Source of the DNA: Terriglobia bacterium
Lineage (GTDB): Bacteria > Acidobacteriota > Terriglobia > Terriglobales > Acidobacteriaceae
Direction: 5' to 3'
DNA: 64,000 bases
Assembly: GCA_020073015.1 (NCBI GenBank)
Contig: JAIQFZ010000029.1
Location: forward strand, 1 to 64,000
This document shows, piece by piece, positions 17,919 to 63,621 of the stretch. How positions within the stretch are numbered: position 1 is the first letter of the stretch; each line of letters begins with the position of its first letter. The translations under genes were made by a program, and so were the position numbers. A model generated the notes under the pieces. It was not told the origin of the DNA, made no database searches, and saw only the letters and a program-made list of their open reading frames with translations.

Positions 17919-20021
17919 GTGGCTTCCTCTTCCCATCCCGTATCGGCTGGCGCGGGATTCTCACTCTACCAGTTCTTCTCGCCCGGCGGCCTGCTCTCGA
18001 GAACGCACCCCGCCTACGAATTCCGCCGCGGCCAGTTGCAGATGGCGCAAGCGGTCGAAGAGGCCATCGAAGAAAAACGCCACCTGATTGTCGAGGCCGG
18101 CACCGGAACCGGCAAAACGCTCGCGTATCTGTTGCCCGTGATCCGCTCCGGCAAGCGCGTCATCATATCCACCGGCACGAAAAACCTGCAGGAGCAGCTG
18201 TTCTCGAAAGACGTACCGTTTCTGGAGCGCTCGCTTTATCCCGACGGAAGCGGCAAGCTCTCCGTCTGCTACATGAAGGGCCGCAACAACTACCTCTGCC
18301 GCAAGAAGCTCTACGACCTGACCGATCAGCCCGTGCTCAGCGGCCTGGAAGAAATCGAGCACTACCGCGCCATCGCCGCCTGGGAGAAGACAACCCGCAC
18401 CGGCGATCGGACTGAACTCGCCGAACTTCCCGAGGCGAGCGCGCTCTGGCACAAACTCGACGCCCGTACTGACACCTGCCTGGGCCAGAAGTGCAAAGAG
18501 TGGGAGCGCTGCTTCATCACCGAAATGCGCCGGCGCGCAGCTGAGAGCGATATCGTCATCGTCAACCACCACCTGTTCTTCGCCGACCTTGCCATCAAGC
18601 TCGAAGCCGAAGATGCGCCCGATGCCGGCGTTCTCCCCGAGAGCGCCGTCGTCATCTTCGACGAAGCGCATGAGTTGGAAGAGGTGGCCGGCAACTATTT
18701 CGGGATTACGGTCAGCAATCTGCGCATGGAGGAACTCGCCCGCGACGTGGAAGCCATGCTGCACCGCGAGCATCTGTACACGCCGCAGATGTCCAGTGCG
18801 ATCCAGTCCCTGCGCGAGCGCTCGCAGCTTTTTTTCTCGGTGCTGCCCGCCGGAGAAGGCCGCTTCGCCTTCGACACGCGCCGCGAGTTCCTCGAAGAAA
18901 ACGGAGACGAATTTCTGGCCCTCAACCAGTCGCTCCACCGGCTGGGCGCCGAACTCGACCAGCTTCCGCAGAAGCCGGAAGAAGTCTTCACGCTGGTGCG
19001 CCGGGCCCAGCAGTTGCAGGTGCAACTCGGATTTGTGATGGAGAACGAAGATCCGAACACGGTCTTCTGGATCGAGCGGCGAGGATTTCGTGGAGCGCCG
19101 GGCACCCCCGCCCGGCGAGCTTTGAAGGGGCGTGGCTTCAGCCACGGCGCAGGTGTCACCTCCGAGAATGGAGCTTCAGCCACTGAGGGGAGGCACTCCG
19201 GCCGCTCCAACGTCTTCCTGCAGGCCACGCCCATCGAAGTCGGCTCCATCCTGCGCCAGTGCCTGTGGTCGAAGCTGGAGACCTCGGTGCTCACCTCCGC
19301 CACGCTGGCGGTCGGCGGCGCCTTCGATTACATTCGCCAGCGGCTCGGCCTCGACCACGCCCGCGAATTCGTCGTGCCCTCGCATTTCGACTACGAGAGC
19401 CAGGCGATCCTCTACGTTCCCCCCGATCTGCCCGATCCACGTACGCCGCAATTCGCCGCGCAGGCGTCCGACCGCATTCGCCGCCTGCTCGAAATCACCC
19501 GTGGCCGAGCGTTCGTGCTCTTCACCAGCTACGCGCAGATGAACGAGATCTACGAGCGGCTTCTGGGATTGTTGGACTTCCCCATGCTCAAGCAGGGCGA
19601 CGCTCCGAAATCAGCGCTGCTCGAAGAATTCCGCATCACGCCCAACGCCGTCCTGTTCGGCACCTCTTCCTTCTGGCAGGGAGTGGACGTGCAGGGTGAG
19701 CAGTTGAGCTGCGTGATTATCGACCGGCTGCCGTTCGCCGTGCCCAGCGACCCGGTGGTCGCCGCCCGCGTAAAAGCGATCGACGCCGGCGGGGGCAACG
19801 CATTTTACGAATACCAGGTGCCGAGCGCAGTGATCACGCTGAAACAGGGCTTCGGACGCCTGATCCGCTCGCTCCACGATCGTGGGCTGCTCACGTTGCT
19901 CGATAACCGGATCTTGAAGAAACAATACGGGCGGGTGTTTGTGGAGAGTCTTCCGCGCTACACGAGGACGACGGATTTGAAGAAGGTGGAGGAGTTTTTC
20001 GGGATAAGCGGTGAGGCGTGA
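17919..20021 (+). CDS. DinG/XPD-family ATP-dependent DNA helicase
   Basis: EAGTGTGKTLAYLLPV, Cys cluster CLGQKCKEWERC, DEAH, GTSSFWQGVDVQGEQLSCVIIDRLPFAVPSDPV, QGFGRLIRS. Confidence 0.93.
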   Translation: MASSSHPVSAGAGFSLYQFFSPGGLLSRTHPAYEFRRGQLQMAQAVEEAIEEKRHLIVEAGTGTGKTLAYLLPVIRSGKRVIISTGTKNLQEQLFSKDVPFLERSLYPDGSGKLSVCYMKGRNNYLCRKKLYDLTDQPVLSGLEEIEHYRAIAAWEKTTRTGDRTELAELPEASALWHKLDARTDTCLGQKCKEWERCFITEMRRRAAESDIVIVNHHLFFADLAIKLEAEDAPDAGVLPESAVVIFDEAHELEEVAGNYFGITVSNLRMEELARDVEAMLHREHLYTPQMSSAIQSLRERSQLFFSVLPAGEGRFAFDTRREFLEENGDEFLALNQSLHRLGAELDQLPQKPEEVFTLVRRAQQLQVQLGFVMENEDPNTVFWIERRGFRGAPGTPARRALKGRGFSHGAGVTSENGASATEGRHSGRSNVFLQATPIEVGSILRQCLWSKLETSVLTSATLAVGGAFDYIRQRLGLDHAREFVVPSHFDYESQAILYVPPDLPDPRTPQFAAQASDRIRRLLEITRGRAFVLFTSYAQMNEIYERLLGLLDFPMLKQGDAPKSALLEEFRITPNAVLFGTSSFWQGVDVQGEQLSCVIIDRLPFAVPSDPVVAARVKAIDAGGGNAFYEYQVPSAVITLKQGFGRLIRSLHDRGLLTLLDNRILKKQYGRVFVESLPRYTRTTDLKKVEEFFGISGEA
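19089..19200. repeat. Composite palindromic element in-frame in the dinG-like gene
   Basis: gtggagcgccgggcacccccgcccggcgagc plus ggggcgtggcttcagccacggcgc. Confidence 0.75.
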
Positions 20022-20027
20022 GTAGGG

Positions 20028-20085
20028 ATCCTTCGACTCCGCAGGAACCTCACTTCGTGAAGTTCCTGCTCCGCTCAGGATGACA
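20028..20085. repeat. Family D palindrome (CCTTCGACTCCGCAGGAACCTCACTTCGTGAAGTTCCTGCTCCGCTCAGGATGACA)
   Basis: Inverted repeat; near-identical copy at 47516-47575. Confidence 0.9.
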
Positions 20086-34521: not shown

Positions 34522-34707
34522 GAGTCATCCTGAGCGCAGCATGCCCCTCACGAGGTGAAGGGGATGCGGAGTCGAAGGACTCTACCCCCATAGGTGCTGC
34601 CATCTGGCAAGGACGTGCCCTCTTCCCGCAGTCCCCCTGCCCCCTCAAAAGGTACAATAATCTCTGCCAATTTCACCAAAGGCGCGACCGGGGCTGAGGC
34701 CGAGTTC

Positions 34708-39878: not shown

Positions 39879-41171
39879 ATGTCTTCGGCAAGCGTCGTGA
39901 GCTTTGAAGAGGCAAGGCACATTGTTGAGCACCATGCTCAGAAAGTCGGTCCCGGGGAAGTCGAGAGAGTGGATCTTCTCGCGGCGCCGGGGCGGGTGCT
40001 GGCTGAGCCGATCCTGGCGGATCGCGACTTCCCTCCGTTTCCGCGCGCGACGCGCGACGGCTATGCCATTTGCACCGCAGACCTGGTGCAGGTTCCCAAA
40101 CGGCTCGAACTGGCCGGCGAAATCCGGGCCGGCGATTGGCCTGAGCCTGGAACGTGCAACGTGGGTCGCGGGCAAGCGGTCTCGATCATGACCGGCGCGC
40201 CGCTGCCTGCGGGTGCGGATGCGGTTGTGATGGTCGAATACACGGCAGAGGTCGGAAAGTCAGTCGAGATTCAACGCAGCGTGAAGAGCGGCGAGAATTT
40301 CGTTCCACGCGGGGCTGAAGCACGCCAGGGCCAGCTGCTCGTCGACCGCGGAACGAGACTGGACCATGCGGCCATCGCCCTCGCAGCGTCGGTGGGCGCG
40401 AGCAAGCTGCCGGTATTCCGAAAGCCGCAAGTGGCAGTGCTTTCAACCGGAGACGAAGTCGTTGAAATGGGCGCGATGCCCGGCCCCGCACAGATTCGGA
40501 ATTCAAATACCTATTCGCTGGCCGCGCAGATCGTGCAAGCAGGCGCCGAAGCTGTGCGGCTCCCGATTGCGCCCGATGAGCCTGCACGGCTGCGGGCGCT
40601 GATGGAAGAAGGTTTCGCCTGCGACCTGCTTCTGCTGACCGGCGGAGTCTCGATGGGCAAGTACGACCTGGTCGAGCAGGTCCTAGCCGGGTTGAAAGCA
40701 GAGTTCTATTTCACAGGCGTAAAGATTCAGCCCGGCAAACCGATAGTATTTGGTTCGGGTGGCGCGGACACTCCTGTCCGCGTGTCAGCAGCGAGTCCGC
40801 AGTCAGCGCGGGCAGGAATGCCCGCGCCACACAAGAAATACTTTTTCGGCCTGCCCGGCAATCCAGTTTCAACGATGGTGGCGTTCAAACTGTTTGCACA
40901 GCCGATGATCGCCGCTCTGGCTGGCATGATGCCGCAGCCGCTGGTTTTTCTGAAGGCTCGGTTGAGATCCGAGATCCGCACGAAGACCGGGCTGAAGCGG
41001 TTTCTGCCAGCCGTACTTTCCGGAGAGTTTGAGAACGCAGAAGTCGAACTGGCCGCCTGGCAAGGTTCTGGAGACATCGCTGCTCTGGCTCGCTCCAACT
41101 GTTTTGTGGTGATTCCGCCCGACCGCGAACAGATCGCGTCGGGAGAGTGGGTTTCGTTGTTGACCGCATGA
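39879..41171 (+). CDS. moeA: Molybdopterin molybdenumtransferase MoeA
   Basis: FPRATRDGYAICTADL, IMTGAPLPAGADAVVMVEYT, LLTGGVSMGKYDLV, FFGLPGNPVSTMVAF. Confidence 0.95.
   Translation: MSSASVVSFEEARHIVEHHAQKVGPGEVERVDLLAAPGRVLAEPILADRDFPPFPRATRDGYAICTADLVQVPKRLELAGEIRAGDWPEPGTCNVGRGQAVSIMTGAPLPAGADAVVMVEYTAEVGKSVEIQRSVKSGENFVPRGAEARQGQLLVDRGTRLDHAAIALAASVGASKLPVFRKPQVAVLSTGDEVVEMGAMPGPAQIRNSNTYSLAAQIVQAGAEAVRLPIAPDEPARLRALMEEGFACDLLLLTGGVSMGKYDLVEQVLAGLKAEFYFTGVKIQPGKPIVFGSGGADTPVRVSAASPQSARAGMPAPHKKYFFGLPGNPVSTMVAFKLFAQPMIAALAGMMPQPLVFLKARLRSEIRTKTGLKRFLPAVLSGEFENAEVELAAWQGSGDIAALARSNCFVVIPPDREQIASGEWVSLLTA
40759..40833. repeat. Family A palindromic element in-frame in moeA
   Basis: gtggcgcggacactcctgtccgcg ... 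cgcgggcaggaatgcccgcgccacacaa. Confidence 0.9.
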
Positions 41172-42950: not shown

Positions 42951-43028
42951 GTGTGGCGCGGACACTCCTGTCCGCGCGGGGAGCCAGCGCACTGCAAACA
43001 CGCGGACGGGAGTGTCCGCGCTACACAA
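42951..43028. repeat. Family A palindromic element, intergenic full-length copy
   Basis: gtgtggcgcggacactcctgtccgcg ... cgcggacgggagtgtccgcgctacacaa. Confidence 0.92.
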
Positions 43029-47403: not shown

Positions 47404-47515
47404 ACGGCTCCCCGATTCGAGTTTAGCAGTCTGGGCGAGAGCGGAAGGTATCTTCACCTGTGTACGGGCTAGTCGTGGTGATCGCCGCGCGTCCCAGCCA
47501 CGGAGAAGAACGTAG

Positions 47516-47575
47516 GGGTCCTTCGACTCCGCAGAAACTTCACTTCGTGAGGTTCCTGCTCCGCTCAGGATGACA
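47516..47575. repeat. Family D palindrome, intergenic
   Basis: tccttcgactccgcagaaacttcacttcgtgaggttcctgctccgctcaggatgaca. Confidence 0.9.
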
Positions 47576-50654: not shown

Positions 50655-52055
50655 TCAAGCAGGAACTTCAGCGGGCGGCGGGATCGGAATGTCCCGAAGC
50701 TGGCTGAGCCAAGTGCCAAACTCGCGCAGAGCCAGGTCGCATTGCAGGCGATGGCGCTCCTTGCGGTCACGAATCCGCGTTGCCAGCGCGGGCAGCAGAT
50801 CGAAAGTGATGTTGGCGGGCTGGAAGTTCTTCGGGTCGGCTTGCGTGATGTAGTGGATGAGACTTCCGAATGCCGTTGCGCGGGGCGGGGGTACGGGCTC
50901 GCCGCCGGCCGCGAGTGCCGCCGCATGGACGCCCGCCATCAGTCCGGTGGCGATCGATTCGACGTAGCCTTCGACTCCGCAGATCTGGCCGGCGAAGAGG
51001 ATGCGGGGATGCTGCTTCATTTGCAGCGTTGCCGTGAGGAGGGTGGGAGCGTTGATGTAGGTGTTGCGGTGAATCTGTCCGTAGCGCAGGAAGCGGGCGT
51101 TTTCGAGGCCGGGGATCAGACGGAGCACGCGCCCTTGCTCGCCGAATTTGAGGTGATTCTGGAAGCCGACGAGGTTGTAGGAGTCGGCACGCAGGTTCTC
51201 CTGGCGAAGCTGGACGACGGCGTAGGGCATCTTTCCGGTACGCGGGTCTTTGAGGCCCACCGGTTTCATCGGCCCGAAGCGCAACGTGTCGCGGCCGCGG
51301 CGAGCGATCTCTTCGATGGGGAGGCATCCTTCGAAGTAGTTCAGTTTCTCCCAGTCTGTTTCTTCCACCGACTGCGCGGCAAGCAGGGCATCGTAGAACG
51401 CGTCGTACTCTTCCTTGGACATGGGGCAGTTGATGTAGTCGGCTGAGCCCTTGTCATAGCGGGCGGCCATGTAAACACGGGCCATGTCGATGGAGTCGGA
51501 TTCGACGATGGGGCTGATGGAATCGTAGAAATACAGGTTGTGTGGCGCGGGCACTCTTGCCCGCGAAGGGTCTGAAGCGCTATCTCCGTGTGGTGTGGGA
51601 GAAGAGCTCAACCGCTGGATCTCGGTCGACAGTGCGTCCGAGGTGAGCGGGCCAGTCGCAATCACCGTGATCTGGCCGTCTTCGATCTGCGCTACTTCTT
51701 CCCGCCGGACGGTGATCAGAGGCTCGCGAGCGATTGCCTCCGTCACTTTCCTGGAAAATTCAGCTCTGTCTACCGCCAGCGCGTGGCCAGCGGGCACTGA
51801 GGTCGCGCGCGCGATTTCCAGCAGCAGCGATCCCGCTTGCCGCATTTCTTCCTTCAGCAACCAGGGCGCGGTGTTTTCGCTGTCGGATTTGAGGGAGTTC
51901 GAGCAAACGAGTTCCGCAAAGTCGGCGGTCTGATGGGCGGGAGTCGTCCGCACGGGGCGCATCTCGAACAAATCGACGGGGATTCCGCGGCGCGTACACT
52001 GCCACGCTGCCTCCGATCCGGCCAAACCCGCGCCAATGACATGAACTCTACCCAT
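50655..52055 (-). CDS. trmFO: Methylenetetrahydrofolate-tRNA-(uracil-5-)-methyltransferase TrmFO
   Basis: VHVIGAGLAGSEAAWQCTRRGIPVDLFEMRPVRTTPAHQTADFAELVCSNSLKSD. Confidence 0.96.
   Translation of the reverse strand: MGRVHVIGAGLAGSEAAWQCTRRGIPVDLFEMRPVRTTPAHQTADFAELVCSNSLKSDSENTAPWLLKEEMRQAGSLLLEIARATSVPAGHALAVDRAEFSRKVTEAIAREPLITVRREEVAQIEDGQITVIATGPLTSDALSTEIQRLSSSPTPHGDSASDPSRARVPAPHNLYFYDSISPIVESDSIDMARVYMAARYDKGSADYINCPMSKEEYDAFYDALLAAQSVEETDWEKLNYFEGCLPIEEIARRGRDTLRFGPMKPVGLKDPRTGKMPYAVVQLRQENLRADSYNLVGFQNHLKFGEQGRVLRLIPGLENARFLRYGQIHRNTYINAPTLLTATLQMKQHPRILFAGQICGVEGYVESIATGLMAGVHAAALAAGGEPVPPPRATAFGSLIHYITQADPKNFQPANITFDLLPALATRIRDRKERHRLQCDLALREFGTWLSQLRDIPIPPPAEVPA
51537..51600. 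repeat. Family A palindromic element in-frame in trmFO
   Basis: gttgtgtggcgcgggcactcttgcccgcgaa...gtgtggtgtggga. Confidence 0.88.
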
Positions 52056-52115
52056 GCAACTAAATAGACTCCGCTGAATCTAGTTATTATAAGTGCCCAG
52101 CAAGGAGGCGATTGG

Positions 52116-52643: not shown

Positions 52644-52694
52644 CGGCTCGTCAAGAGTGAAAATTCGCTCTTCAGCTCACAACTTGCCAGATTT

Positions 52695-52767
52695 TGTCAT
52701 CCCGAGCGAAGCGAGGGATCTGCAGTTCGCCGCAAGATGCAGATCCCTCGCTTCGCTCGGGATGACA
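52695..52767. repeat. Perfect 30-bp inverted repeat with 13-nt loop (family D'); possible bidirectional terminator
   Basis: tgtcatcccgagcgaagcgagggatctgca / gttcgccgcaaga / tgcagatccctcgcttcgctcgggatgaca, between convergent genes. Confidence 0.95.
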
Positions 52768-52816
52768 ATTCAGAAAGTTGTTTTTAGTTCTGCAATCTGA
52801 CTTCTAACTTCTGTAA

Positions 52817-54820: not shown

Positions 54821-54870
54821 AATAAGCATGCGAAAAGTCGGTTGAGATGCGAAAATAGAAATTCCCCATC

Positions 54871-57198
54871 ATGACCACCACCGCGATACCTGTCATTACA
54901 CCCGAGATGATCCGGGAGCACGGGCTCACGCCTGACGAATTCGAGAAGATCAAACAGCTGCTGGGGGGACGTGAACCCACGCGGACAGAACTCGGCATTT
55001 TCAGCGTGATGTGGAGCGAGCACTGCTCGTACAAGTCGTCGCGCGTGCACCTGAAGCGCTTGCCGACGCGCAGCAAGCTGGTGGTGCAGGGACCAGGCGA
55101 GAATGCCGGCATTATCGACATCGGTGACGGCTGGGCCTGTGCGTTCAAGATCGAGTCGCATAATCATCCGTCGTTTATTGAGCCGTTTCAGGGGGCGGCG
55201 ACGGGGGTGGGTGGGATTTTGCGCGACATTTTCACGATGGGCGCGCGGCCGGTAGCCGTGATGGACTCGCTGCGGTTTGGGCCGATCGAAGCTGCCAAAA
55301 GCGCGGACAAGAGTGCCCGCGCTACACAGGCTGAGATCCACAAGAACCATTCCGTGATGGAAGGCGTCGTCTCGGGCGTGGCCTCGTACGGAAACTGCTT
55401 TGGCGTGCCTAACCTGGGCGGAGAAGTGAAGTTTGAGCCTTGCTATTCGGGCAATCCGCTGGTGAATGCATTCGCCCTTGGGCTGGTGCGCCGCGATCAG
55501 ATTTTCTACGCACGGGCGGCGGGCGAGGGCAATCCCGTGATCTACGTTGGCGCCAAGACCGGACGCGATGGCATCCACGGCGCCACCATGGCGAGCGAGG
55601 AATTCAGCGAGGGATCGGAAGCGAAGCGGCCCAATGTTCAGGTCGGCGATCCCTTCCTCGAAAAGCTATTGCTCGAGGCCTGTCTCGAGGCGATGCAGAC
55701 GGGCGCGATCGTTGGCATTCAGGACATGGGCGCAGCCGGTCTTACCTGTTCCACCTGCGAGATGGGCGGGCGCGGCGGCACCGGGATCGAGATCGAGCTC
55801 GACCGCGTTCCACAACGCGAAACCGGCATGACTCCGTACGAAATCATGCTGAGCGAATCGCAGGAGCGGATGCTGCTGGTTGCGCAGAAGGGCCGCGAAG
55901 AGGAAGTCTTTCGCGTGTTTCAGAAGTGGGGACTGGACGCGGTCGAGGTTGGACGCGTCACGCGCGATGCCAAGATGCGCGTGCTCGAGCACGGGAAAGT
56001 CGTCGCGGAGATTCCGAACTCCGCGCTCACCGACGATGCGCCGGTGTATAAGCGTCCGCTGGCGCGCTGGGAGCCGCCGGTGGAGCGAGACATGCCCGAG
56101 CACATTCAACTCGCCGAAAGCGGCGATTTCACCGGGCAGCTCAAACAGTTGCTGGCCAGCTCGAATATCTGTTCGAAGCGCTGGGTGTGGCAGCAGTACG
56201 ACCACATGGTGCAAACCAACACCGTCGAAGCGCCGGGCGCGGGCGATGCGGGCGTGATCCGCATCAAAGGCCTTGATCGCGGACTCGCCATGGCGCTCGA
56301 CGGCAACGGACGGTGGTGCTATCTCGATCCTCGGCTGGGCGCGATGCATGCGGTCGCGGAAGCGGCTCGCAAGGTGGCTTGCGCCGGGGCGACTCCGGTG
56401 GGCGCGACCAACTGCTTGAATTTCGGCAATCCAGAAAAGCCACATATCATGTGGCAGTTCTCGCAGGTCATTGACGGCATGACGAAGGCTTGCGAGGAAC
56501 TCGACACTCCCATCACGGGCGGCAACGTGAGTTTCTACAATGAGACTCTGGGTGAGGGAATTTATCCGACGCCGGTCATTGGCGTGGTGGGCATTCTCGA
56601 AGACGTGCACAAGACTGCGAAGATGCACTTTGCGCGGCCTGGGCGAAAAATCATTCTGCTGCGGGCGAACGAGGCAGGCGATGCGGTGGACGTCGAGTCG
56701 GAGTTTGGTTCTTCTGAATATGCCAAAGAAGTCCTGGGCACGTTCTGGGGTTATCCGCCTCAGCTTGATCTGGAGAGGGAAGCCACGCTGCAGCGCGCGC
56801 TGGTGGCGATGATCCGGGCGGGGTTGGTCGAGTCGGCGCATGACTGCTCCGATGGCGGAGTCGCGGTGGCGCTGGCTGAATCGGCGCTGCCGGTTGGGGT
56901 TGGTTGCAAGGTTCATATCGCGGAGCAAGCCCTGCCACCTGAGTTCCTGCTTTTTGGAGAAGATGCCAGCCGTATCGTGCTGAGTTGCGATCCAATTCAT
57001 CTGCCGAGCATCCAACAGATAGCGGTGGAGTACGGCGTCTTTGCGGATGGGCTGGGGGAAACGGGCACCGATAGGGTCGAAATCACCATGGAGGGTCAGT
57101 CGATGATTTCGACCAGCGTCGCCGAGTTGCGGGAAGCGTATGAGGGCGCGCTGGAGAGGGCGTTGCGGACTGAACCGAGCGTTGCCGCTGCGGACTGA
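54871..57198 (+). CDS. purL: Phosphoribosylformylglycinamidine synthase II
   Basis: [76 protein letters not shown]. Confidence 0.96.
55301..55329. repeat. Family A half-element in-frame in purL
   Basis: gcgcggacaagagtgcccgcgctacacag. Confidence 0.85.
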
Positions 57199-62580: not shown

Positions 62581-63492
62581 TTACCGGCCCCTGGTTGGTT
62601 TTCTCGCTGCCGCTACTCGCGCGATTCCCTGCAGATCGTTTGTAATCGCTACTTCCCACCACCCTGATAGCAGAGGCCGCACCCGATCAGCGATGGTCCC
62701 GCTGATTTCGAAGACGAGCCAGCCACCGGGCTTCAGAGCCCTCCGCGCTTGCGGAATCAGGCGCTCGATTACTTCGAGGCCGTTCGGACCGGCAAACACC
62801 GCATTCCGTGGCTCGAACTTGCGCACTTCAAGCTGGACGGAATCCTCCTCCAACTCGCTCACGTACGGAGGATTGGAAACGACGAAGTCGAATTCCCCGT
62901 GCGGCAATCCGCTTAACAAGTCCGTCTGGTGAAATGTGATTCGCGAAGTGAACTCATGCCGCGCGGCGTTGGCGCGTGCAACTTCGAGCGCGCCGGCGGA
63001 AATGTCTGTCGCCTGGATCTCCGCGGATGGCAGCTCGTTGGCCAGAGCAAGTGCAATCGCTCCAGAACCGGTACCCACATCCACAATGTGTGGCGCGGAC
63101 ACTCCTGTCCGCGGCTTTTGATCCTGATCTTGGTCTTGGTCTTGACTCTGGCTTGACCCATCTCCCAAGACCAGCCCCAGCACGGTCTCCACCACATGCT
63201 CTGTCTCCGGCCGCGGAATCAGGACCGCCGGCGACACAATCAGATCCAGCCCCCAGAATTCCTGATGTCCCGTGATGTACTGCGCGGGAACGCCGGTACC
63301 CCGGCGCGCGAGAGCTTCGTCATAGCGCTGCAGTTCATCCGACGTCAGTTTCCGCTCCGGATGCGCATACAAATAAGCCCGGTCGCAATCGAGCGTGAAC
63401 ATGATGAGAAGTTCCGCGTTCATGCGCGGGGAAGGAACGCCCGCGGTAGTCAGCCTCTCAATTGCTGCATTCAGAGCCTGGCGAAGTTGCAC
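62581..63492 (-). CDS. prmC: Release factor glutamine methyltransferase
   Basis: IVDVGTGSGAIALALANELP, FDFVVSNPPYVSE. Confidence 0.95.
   Translation of the reverse strand: MQLRQALNAAIERLTTAGVPSPRMNAELLIMFTLDCDRAYLYAHPERKLTSDELQRYDEALARRGTGVPAQYITGHQEFWGLDLIVSPAVLIPRPETEHVVETVLGLVLGDGSSQSQDQDQDQDQKPRTGVSAPHIVDVGTGSGAIALALANELPSAEIQATDISAGALEVARANAARHEFTSRITFHQTDLLSGLPHGEFDFVVSNPPYVSELEEDSVQLEVRKFEPRNAVFAGPNGLEVIERLIPQARRALKPGGWLVFEISGTIADRVRPLLSGWWEVAITNDLQGIARVAAARKPTRGR
63087..63157. repeat. Family A half-element plus hexanucleotide (Gln-Asp) tandem repeat in-frame in prmC
   Basis: tgtgtggcgcggacactcctgtccgcgg then tcctgatcttggtcttggtcttgactctggc. Confidence 0.88.
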
Positions 63493-63621
63493 AGATCTAT
63501 TTCACCACGGAGACGCGGAGGAATGCAGAAGTAAGGAATCAGATTGCAGAAGTAGAACCCAAATCGCACCCGCTGCTGACTACTGCATTCTGACTTCTTA
63601 CTTCTGCAATCGATGTTCAGT

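Follow-up and report, generated by a model that had tools for sequence, protein, structure and literature searches.

How does an enzyme of the core metabolism come to carry, within its reading frame, a palindromic repeat of the kind that is usually found between genes, and what becomes of such a passenger as species diverge? The question is raised by a moeA gene in a 64 000-nucleotide stretch of Terriglobia DNA (hereafter the window), which lies on contig C189 of a 5.5-Mb genome, G000. The gene (ORF 39879–41171, plus strand) is intact and specifies 430 amino acids; its product is matched by all three of the Pfam domains MoeA_N, MoCF_biosynth and MoeA_C, and it gives the one full-length moeA match in G000, where no second moeA-like gene was found. 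The reading that we consider highly probable is that a permissive loop of MoeA has been a genus-wide landing site for REPINs, and that the DNA content of this site keeps being replaced. The comparisons that lead to it were all made on metagenome-derived genomes, one per species, the named relatives being Acidobacteriaceae and Terriglobia from, mainly, soil and peat.

An in-frame REP doublet in moeA and its intergenic twin

An earlier note on this DNA had described a full-length element of about 75 bp inside moeA, consisting of two hairpins enclosed by outer inverted ends. It is in fact a canonical, REPIN-like doublet of 76 bp (40757–40832, plus strand; encoding GGADTPVRVSAASPQSARAGMPAPH), with limits no more than 3 bp from those first proposed. 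Two inverted 26-bp REPs flank a 24-bp spacer: the left REP (40757–40782, plus strand) is of type D1 (GGGTGGCGCGGACACTCCTGTCCGCG), the right REP (40807–40832, minus strand) is inverted and of type D2 (GTGTGGCGCGGGCATTCCTGCCCGCG), and each has an 8-bp stem and a 4-nt loop; the outer ends are inverted. The spacer (40783–40806, plus strand) is in forward orientation and identical to the family spacer at 23 of 24 positions. Translated in silico, the doublet adds 25 amino acids to the protein.

Two trivial explanations were rejected. A chance hairpin is ruled out by the abundance of the repeat: seven family REPs occur in the window at up to three mismatches, versus none in 100 shuffled versions, and the pattern GTGTRGCGCGGRCAYTCYTGYCCGCG, again with up to three mismatches, has 233 matches in the 5.5 Mb of G000, versus none for the reversed pattern. 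Nor is moeA a pseudogene, since the regions flanking the insert are under strong purifying selection (72% of changes are at third codon positions) and the active-site motifs are invariant.

The near-twin that had been reported between mogA and dedA was confirmed, in the opposite orientation: a second doublet (42951–43026, minus strand) lies immediately beyond the end of the mogA ORF, 2194 bp from the moeA doublet (start to start), and is 78% identical to it on the opposite strand, the REPs matching and the spacers differing. One gene cluster therefore does hold the same repeat unit in coding and non-coding form. The two copies differ in their distribution. When 16 named loci were compared over about 9 kb of synteny, moeA was seen to contain a REP in 12 of them, while the mogA–dedA doublet is confined to two of 13 spanning loci (the window and the sister genome G001), and no REP beyond these moeA and mogA–dedA copies was found in the syntenic stretches. 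Judged by this distribution, the coding copy is old and widely shared, and the intergenic twin is young.

The repeat family and its RAYT partners

The sampled loci contain 18 doublets, with spacers mostly of 22–28 nt that have a 24-nt spacer sequence in common; like the GTAG REPs discussed below, they are head–head dimers with the tag outside. Among perfect REPs in the sampled loci of G000 the tag is GTGG in 31 and GTAG in 14, and it is GTGG at both ends of the moeA copy. The core types D1 (GCGGACAYTCYTGTCCGC), D2 (GCGGGCAYTCYTGCCCGC) and D3 (GCGGGCGCCCYCGCCCGC) are present in 140, 39 and 11 copies, respectively, in G000, and when the same cores were counted in 24 congeners, their balance was seen to vary by species (an extreme being G015, with three D1 versus 40 D3).

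RAYT-like genes of the genus are each flanked by REPs of one type, D3 in the case of L103–L109 and D1 or D2 in the case of L110–L114 and L127. The products of L103, L104 and L110 have the catalytic motifs of RAYTs, PDHVHLLL (the HUH motif) and WQEESFDHVLRS...KVEY (the C-terminal tyrosine motif). With the profile NF047646, L010–L015 score above the cut-off and L103 below it (43.6, against a cut-off of 80). The RAYT-like gene of G000 at L103:398–1042, the ORF of which overlaps D3 REPs and which scores under this NCBIfam cut-off, may be degenerate. The REP-flanked RAYT of G000 is of the D3 type only; D1-flanked RAYT genes are found in other species, and none was found in G000, where the RAYTs that exceed the NCBIfam cut-off have no family REP nearby, except for one D3-like REP near L010. 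Because the REPs beside the RAYT genes of relatives agree with the family in sequence type, we assign the repeat family, on the strength of these flanks, to a REPIN/RAYT system, even though G000 itself yielded no RAYT with D1 flanks.

Occupation of the moeA loop across relatives

Twenty-two congeneric moeA alleles could be read through the loop. Fourteen have a two-REP insert (in L021 and L030 with another palindrome nested within it), three have a single REP (L025, L026 and L031), two have a decayed insert (L032 and L033), two have an unrelated palindrome (L037 and L039), and one (L038) is empty. Further afield, no REP is present at the loop in L040, L041, L043 or L060, a lone REP is present in L061, and the more distant outgroups have no doublet there. 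When the insert columns were left out of the alignment, the resulting MoeA tree, some branches of which are weakly supported, placed occupation at the root of the genus clade.

It had been claimed that in relatives the motif KPxxFG is followed almost directly by FGLPGNP. This is true of the more distant relatives and does not hold for congeners, because most of these carry the insert. Alleles lacking it, the search for which had been recommended, are L038, L040, L041, L043 and L060. The converse case, of distant orthologues having the same residues with no repeat at the DNA level, was not seen among the relatives compared: the distant sequences lack the residues, and the carriers have REP structure.

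Some further observations concern the sampling and the neighbourhood of the loop. In L035 (G010:C32) and L036 (G018:C357) the assembly breaks, or has N, at the moeA insert; short-read assembly of the hairpins is therefore unreliable, and some alleles have been missed. The L018 copy was left out of the aligned set. The third palindrome family, that of L037 and L039, was found by a strict pattern as one copy in each of four genomes, so its status as a repeat is unproven. A second MoeA loop, at residues c. 123–127, contains another palindrome, giving HPNAAKDATLGWG-like peptides, in L023, L029, L034, L037 and L039 (twice in L034).

Turnover of the insert

Has this insert simply diverged in place since the genus arose? 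If there had been one ancient insertion followed by vertical descent, with the hairpins kept by compensatory mutation for some function in mRNA or DNA (such as the pacing of translation, or mRNA stability) and with no replacement, one would expect the site to be common to the genus, which it is, and the stem pairs to covary, which they do, above all shuffles. Covariation of stems is expected equally if whole REPs are swapped, however, and other features are hard to reconcile with descent alone. The family spacer is matched in forward orientation in seven moeA alleles and in inverted orientation in seven (each better than shuffles), and point mutation cannot give an inversion. The metagenome-derived sequences L021 and L059 have flanks that are 94% identical right up to the insert, but their inserts differ wholesale, in type, orientation and nesting, L021 having a D1 element with its spacer inverted and another palindrome nested in it, and L059 a D3 element with its spacer forward. 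The changes of type match REP types found elsewhere in the genomes, although the association between the moeA REP type and the prevailing type of the genome is weak (P about 0.02 and 0.03, with kinship ignored). Finally, hairpins have been lost from L029 and L023 (right half), L032 and L033, in all of which the gene is still open, and the existence of several alleles without stems disfavours a functional RNA hairpin. We therefore regard vertical divergence as improbable. An origin of the L059 insert by recent transfer from one of the sampled moeA alleles was considered and set aside, the best match being only 74%.

A second possibility is that the peptide itself is adaptive, perhaps as a binding loop, and is under selection at the protein level. 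The boundary residues are conserved, SCGA...SAPHKKY being common to nearly all alleles, and GTGG is found at both ends of the moeA copies, where a GTAG would mean Ser in place of Gly and Leu in place of Pro. Between these ends the insert shows no sign of such selection. In ten alleles of equal length (45 pairs), the differences are distributed over codon positions 1/2/3 as 17/11/72% in the flanks and 32/32/36% in the inserts; five disjoint pairs give 16/10/74% versus 26/39/36% (P about 10⁻¹³). Mean amino-acid identity is 88% in the flanks and 51% in the inserts, and the identities of flank and insert are uncorrelated (r = 0.09, 45 pairs). Given also that the loop is predicted to be disordered and that the empty allele L038 exists, an adaptive peptide seems improbable as well. 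Least credible of all is that the insert never reaches the protein, the hairpins being skipped by the ribosome (programmed bypass) or spliced from the RNA: two strong hairpins in an otherwise conserved gene might bring this to mind, but every complete moeA allele has an open frame across the insert, which a skipped element would not need.

In the empty allele, L038 (TTCGTGTGGCAAGAAATAC), 69 nt are missing and GTGTGGC, 7 bp of one end, is kept. In the REPIN excisions found by Bertels and Rainey (2011, PMC3116915), the loss begins with the first conserved base at one end, whereas about 6 bp are spared at the other. The loss in L038 resembles such an excision, because it has the same asymmetry of ends, and 69 nt is a multiple of three. 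L038 fits an excision footprint, but may instead be an ancestral or a horizontally acquired empty allele, since its position among the MoeA sequences of the tree is poorly supported.

As read from these alleles, then, same-site turnover at the moeA loop, with flips and nesting, is demonstrated.

Why MoeA accommodates the insert

At the place of 26 residues in this MoeA, the E. coli protein has three. An AlphaFold2 model, made with 30 orthologues, has a mean pLDDT of 86.8, falling below 50 for residues 298–317, between strands at 290–294 and 320–325; in Foldseek searches the model finds the folds of MoeA, gephyrin E and Cnx1E. The insert is thus predicted to form a disordered loop of a β-hairpin next to FGLPGNP, in keeping with the suggestion, in the earlier note, of a surface loop beside that motif.

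When the consensus unit with GTGG tags is read in six frames, frame 1 contains no stop on either strand, and both orientations give the same terminal peptides, CGADTPVR and TRTGVSAPH, so a flip keeps both the frame and the ends. MoeA tolerates the insert, then, because one frame of the 76-bp palindromic unit is free of stops and gives the same end peptides whichever way the unit lies.

REPs in other genes

moeA is one of several genes concerned. Many REP copies are intergenic, yet in a census of about 40 sampled loci at least seven Pfam-recognised genes of G000 have an internal copy. In the window, single family REPs are in frame in trmFO (51540–51565, plus strand; ORF 50658–52079, minus strand), in purL (55302–55327, minus strand; ORF 54859–57195) and in prmC (63088–63113, plus strand; ORF 62584–63501, minus strand), in the last case between the PrmC_N and methyltransferase domains. 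Elsewhere in G000, Pfam spans place internal family REPs in genes for a family 2 glycosyltransferase (L006:1501–1580), LarC (L072:1508–1533), MutL (L077:1501–1526) and TrmD (L089:1501–1526); in the glycosyltransferase, LarC and TrmD the insert corresponds to length in excess of the Pfam profile. The TrmFO loop has a REP in 12 of 24 congeners and the PurL loop has REPs in seven of 21, of differing types in both cases; these two loops, too, are recurrent landing sites, with a pattern like that of moeA.

The window holds other repeats as well: a further dispersed palindrome family (TCCTTCGACTCCGCAGGAAC...GTTCCTGCTCCGCTCAGGATGACA) at 20022–20085, 34524–34580 and 47512–47575, a 27-nt palindromic family (GAGCGNCGGGCNNCCNCGCCCGNC) at 19090, 21199, 24811 and 33992, and, at 52694–52768, perfect inverted repeats of 31 bp around a 13-nt loop (TTGTCATCCCGAGCGAAGCGAGGGATCTGCA).

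How the site may have been filled and refilled

From its distribution, we infer that a RAYT-mobilised member of the REP/REPIN family entered a permissive surface loop of MoeA in the ancestor of the genus. The insert would be translated, through the open frame, as a loop predicted to be disordered; the site has since stayed occupied, while its DNA has been overwritten again and again, so that species differ in sequence type, in the direction of the spacer, in the number of REPs and even in the family of the element. The overwriting would most probably go by gene conversion with REPs as templates, or by a RAYT that excises elements and re-inserts them at REP termini. Selection at the insert preserves an open frame but hardly any other property of the protein, as shown by the lack of codon-position bias there, and the scheme requires no cellular function of the peptide.

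Many independent de novo insertions at one hot spot, instead of one old insertion with replacement, are a serious though less favoured alternative, which the different element families in L037 and L039, the nested elements of L021 and L030, the lone REP of L061 and the similarly mixed loops of TrmFO and PurL would all suit. Against it are the ends common to nearly all alleles and the single allele in the genus that is clean of the insert. The two processes may operate side by side, and these data hardly tell them apart.

An extension of the preferred reading, in which one old insertion is repeatedly replaced, is more speculative, and we put it forward only tentatively: the loop may be a standing docking site for REPINs. 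Once it is filled, one whole element would be exchanged for another without disturbing the codons, either by RAYT excision and re-insertion or by conversion from a REP template, and core genes would provide a lasting refuge in which the REP family survives. Codon-precise exchange is suggested because a unit of 76 bp alters the length of the gene by 69 nt, or 23 codons, with the same end peptides both ways. To our knowledge, REPIN transposition has hardly ever been caught in the act, which leaves the movement and persistence of REPINs to be explained. At coding sites, which are bound to a reading frame, insertion, inversion, replacement and loss can be followed at a single place, exact to the nucleotide, in more than 20 species, so models of the mechanism become testable from sequence alone.

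Relation to known systems

In-frame insertion at orthologous sites, a hallmark of the Rickettsia palindromic elements (RPEs), was found here for moeA, trmFO and purL, exposure having been modelled for moeA only. RPEs, reportedly described by Ogata in 2000, probably differ in sequence from the REP family considered here. The seven kinds, RPE-1 to RPE-7, are likewise palindromes that interrupt conserved proteins without breaking the frame; orthologues from several species have them at identical sites, in solvent-exposed positions (PMC3767692). Their hosts are obligate intracellular alphaproteobacteria, whereas ours are soil bacteria, and the likeness is in behaviour only; moreover, a RAYT partner can be identified for the present REPs, which occur in coding as well as intergenic copies.

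With REPINs and their RAYTs (TnpA-REP; PMC3116915) the family shares the arrangement of two inverted REPs around a short spacer, the hundreds of REP copies, the RAYTs flanked by REPs of the same type, and what may be an asymmetric footprint in the empty allele. REPINs were described as extragenic, whereas here there are in-frame copies in core enzymes, and one site is common to a genus while its content is replaced. Another parallel is provided by the head–head dimers of GTAG REPs, as characterised in the part of Di Nocera 2013 (PMC3733652) drawn on here, which have the GTAG or GTGG tag outside and in-frame intragenic copies; many of the latter are in genes for DNA repair and tRNA modification, and recB of two Xanthomonas species has different REPs at about the same site. 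In that part of the paper, Koribacter and other Acidobacteria are named only for terminal-inverted-repeat transposases, and there is no mention of flipped orientation or of turnover at a single site throughout a genus.

Intragenic REPs, in the form of GTAG REPs, and same-site RPEs are thus already known, from the portions of PMC3733652 and PMC3767692 cited here. What appears to be new, relative to what these parts of the REPIN, GTAG-REP and RPE literature describe, is the combination of same-site turnover and flipping: replacement across a genus, inversion and multi-family nesting, in a system with a RAYT partner. Bacterial core enzymes can carry peptides of selfish-DNA origin throughout a genus, beyond the intracellular Rickettsia in which such peptides were first noted.
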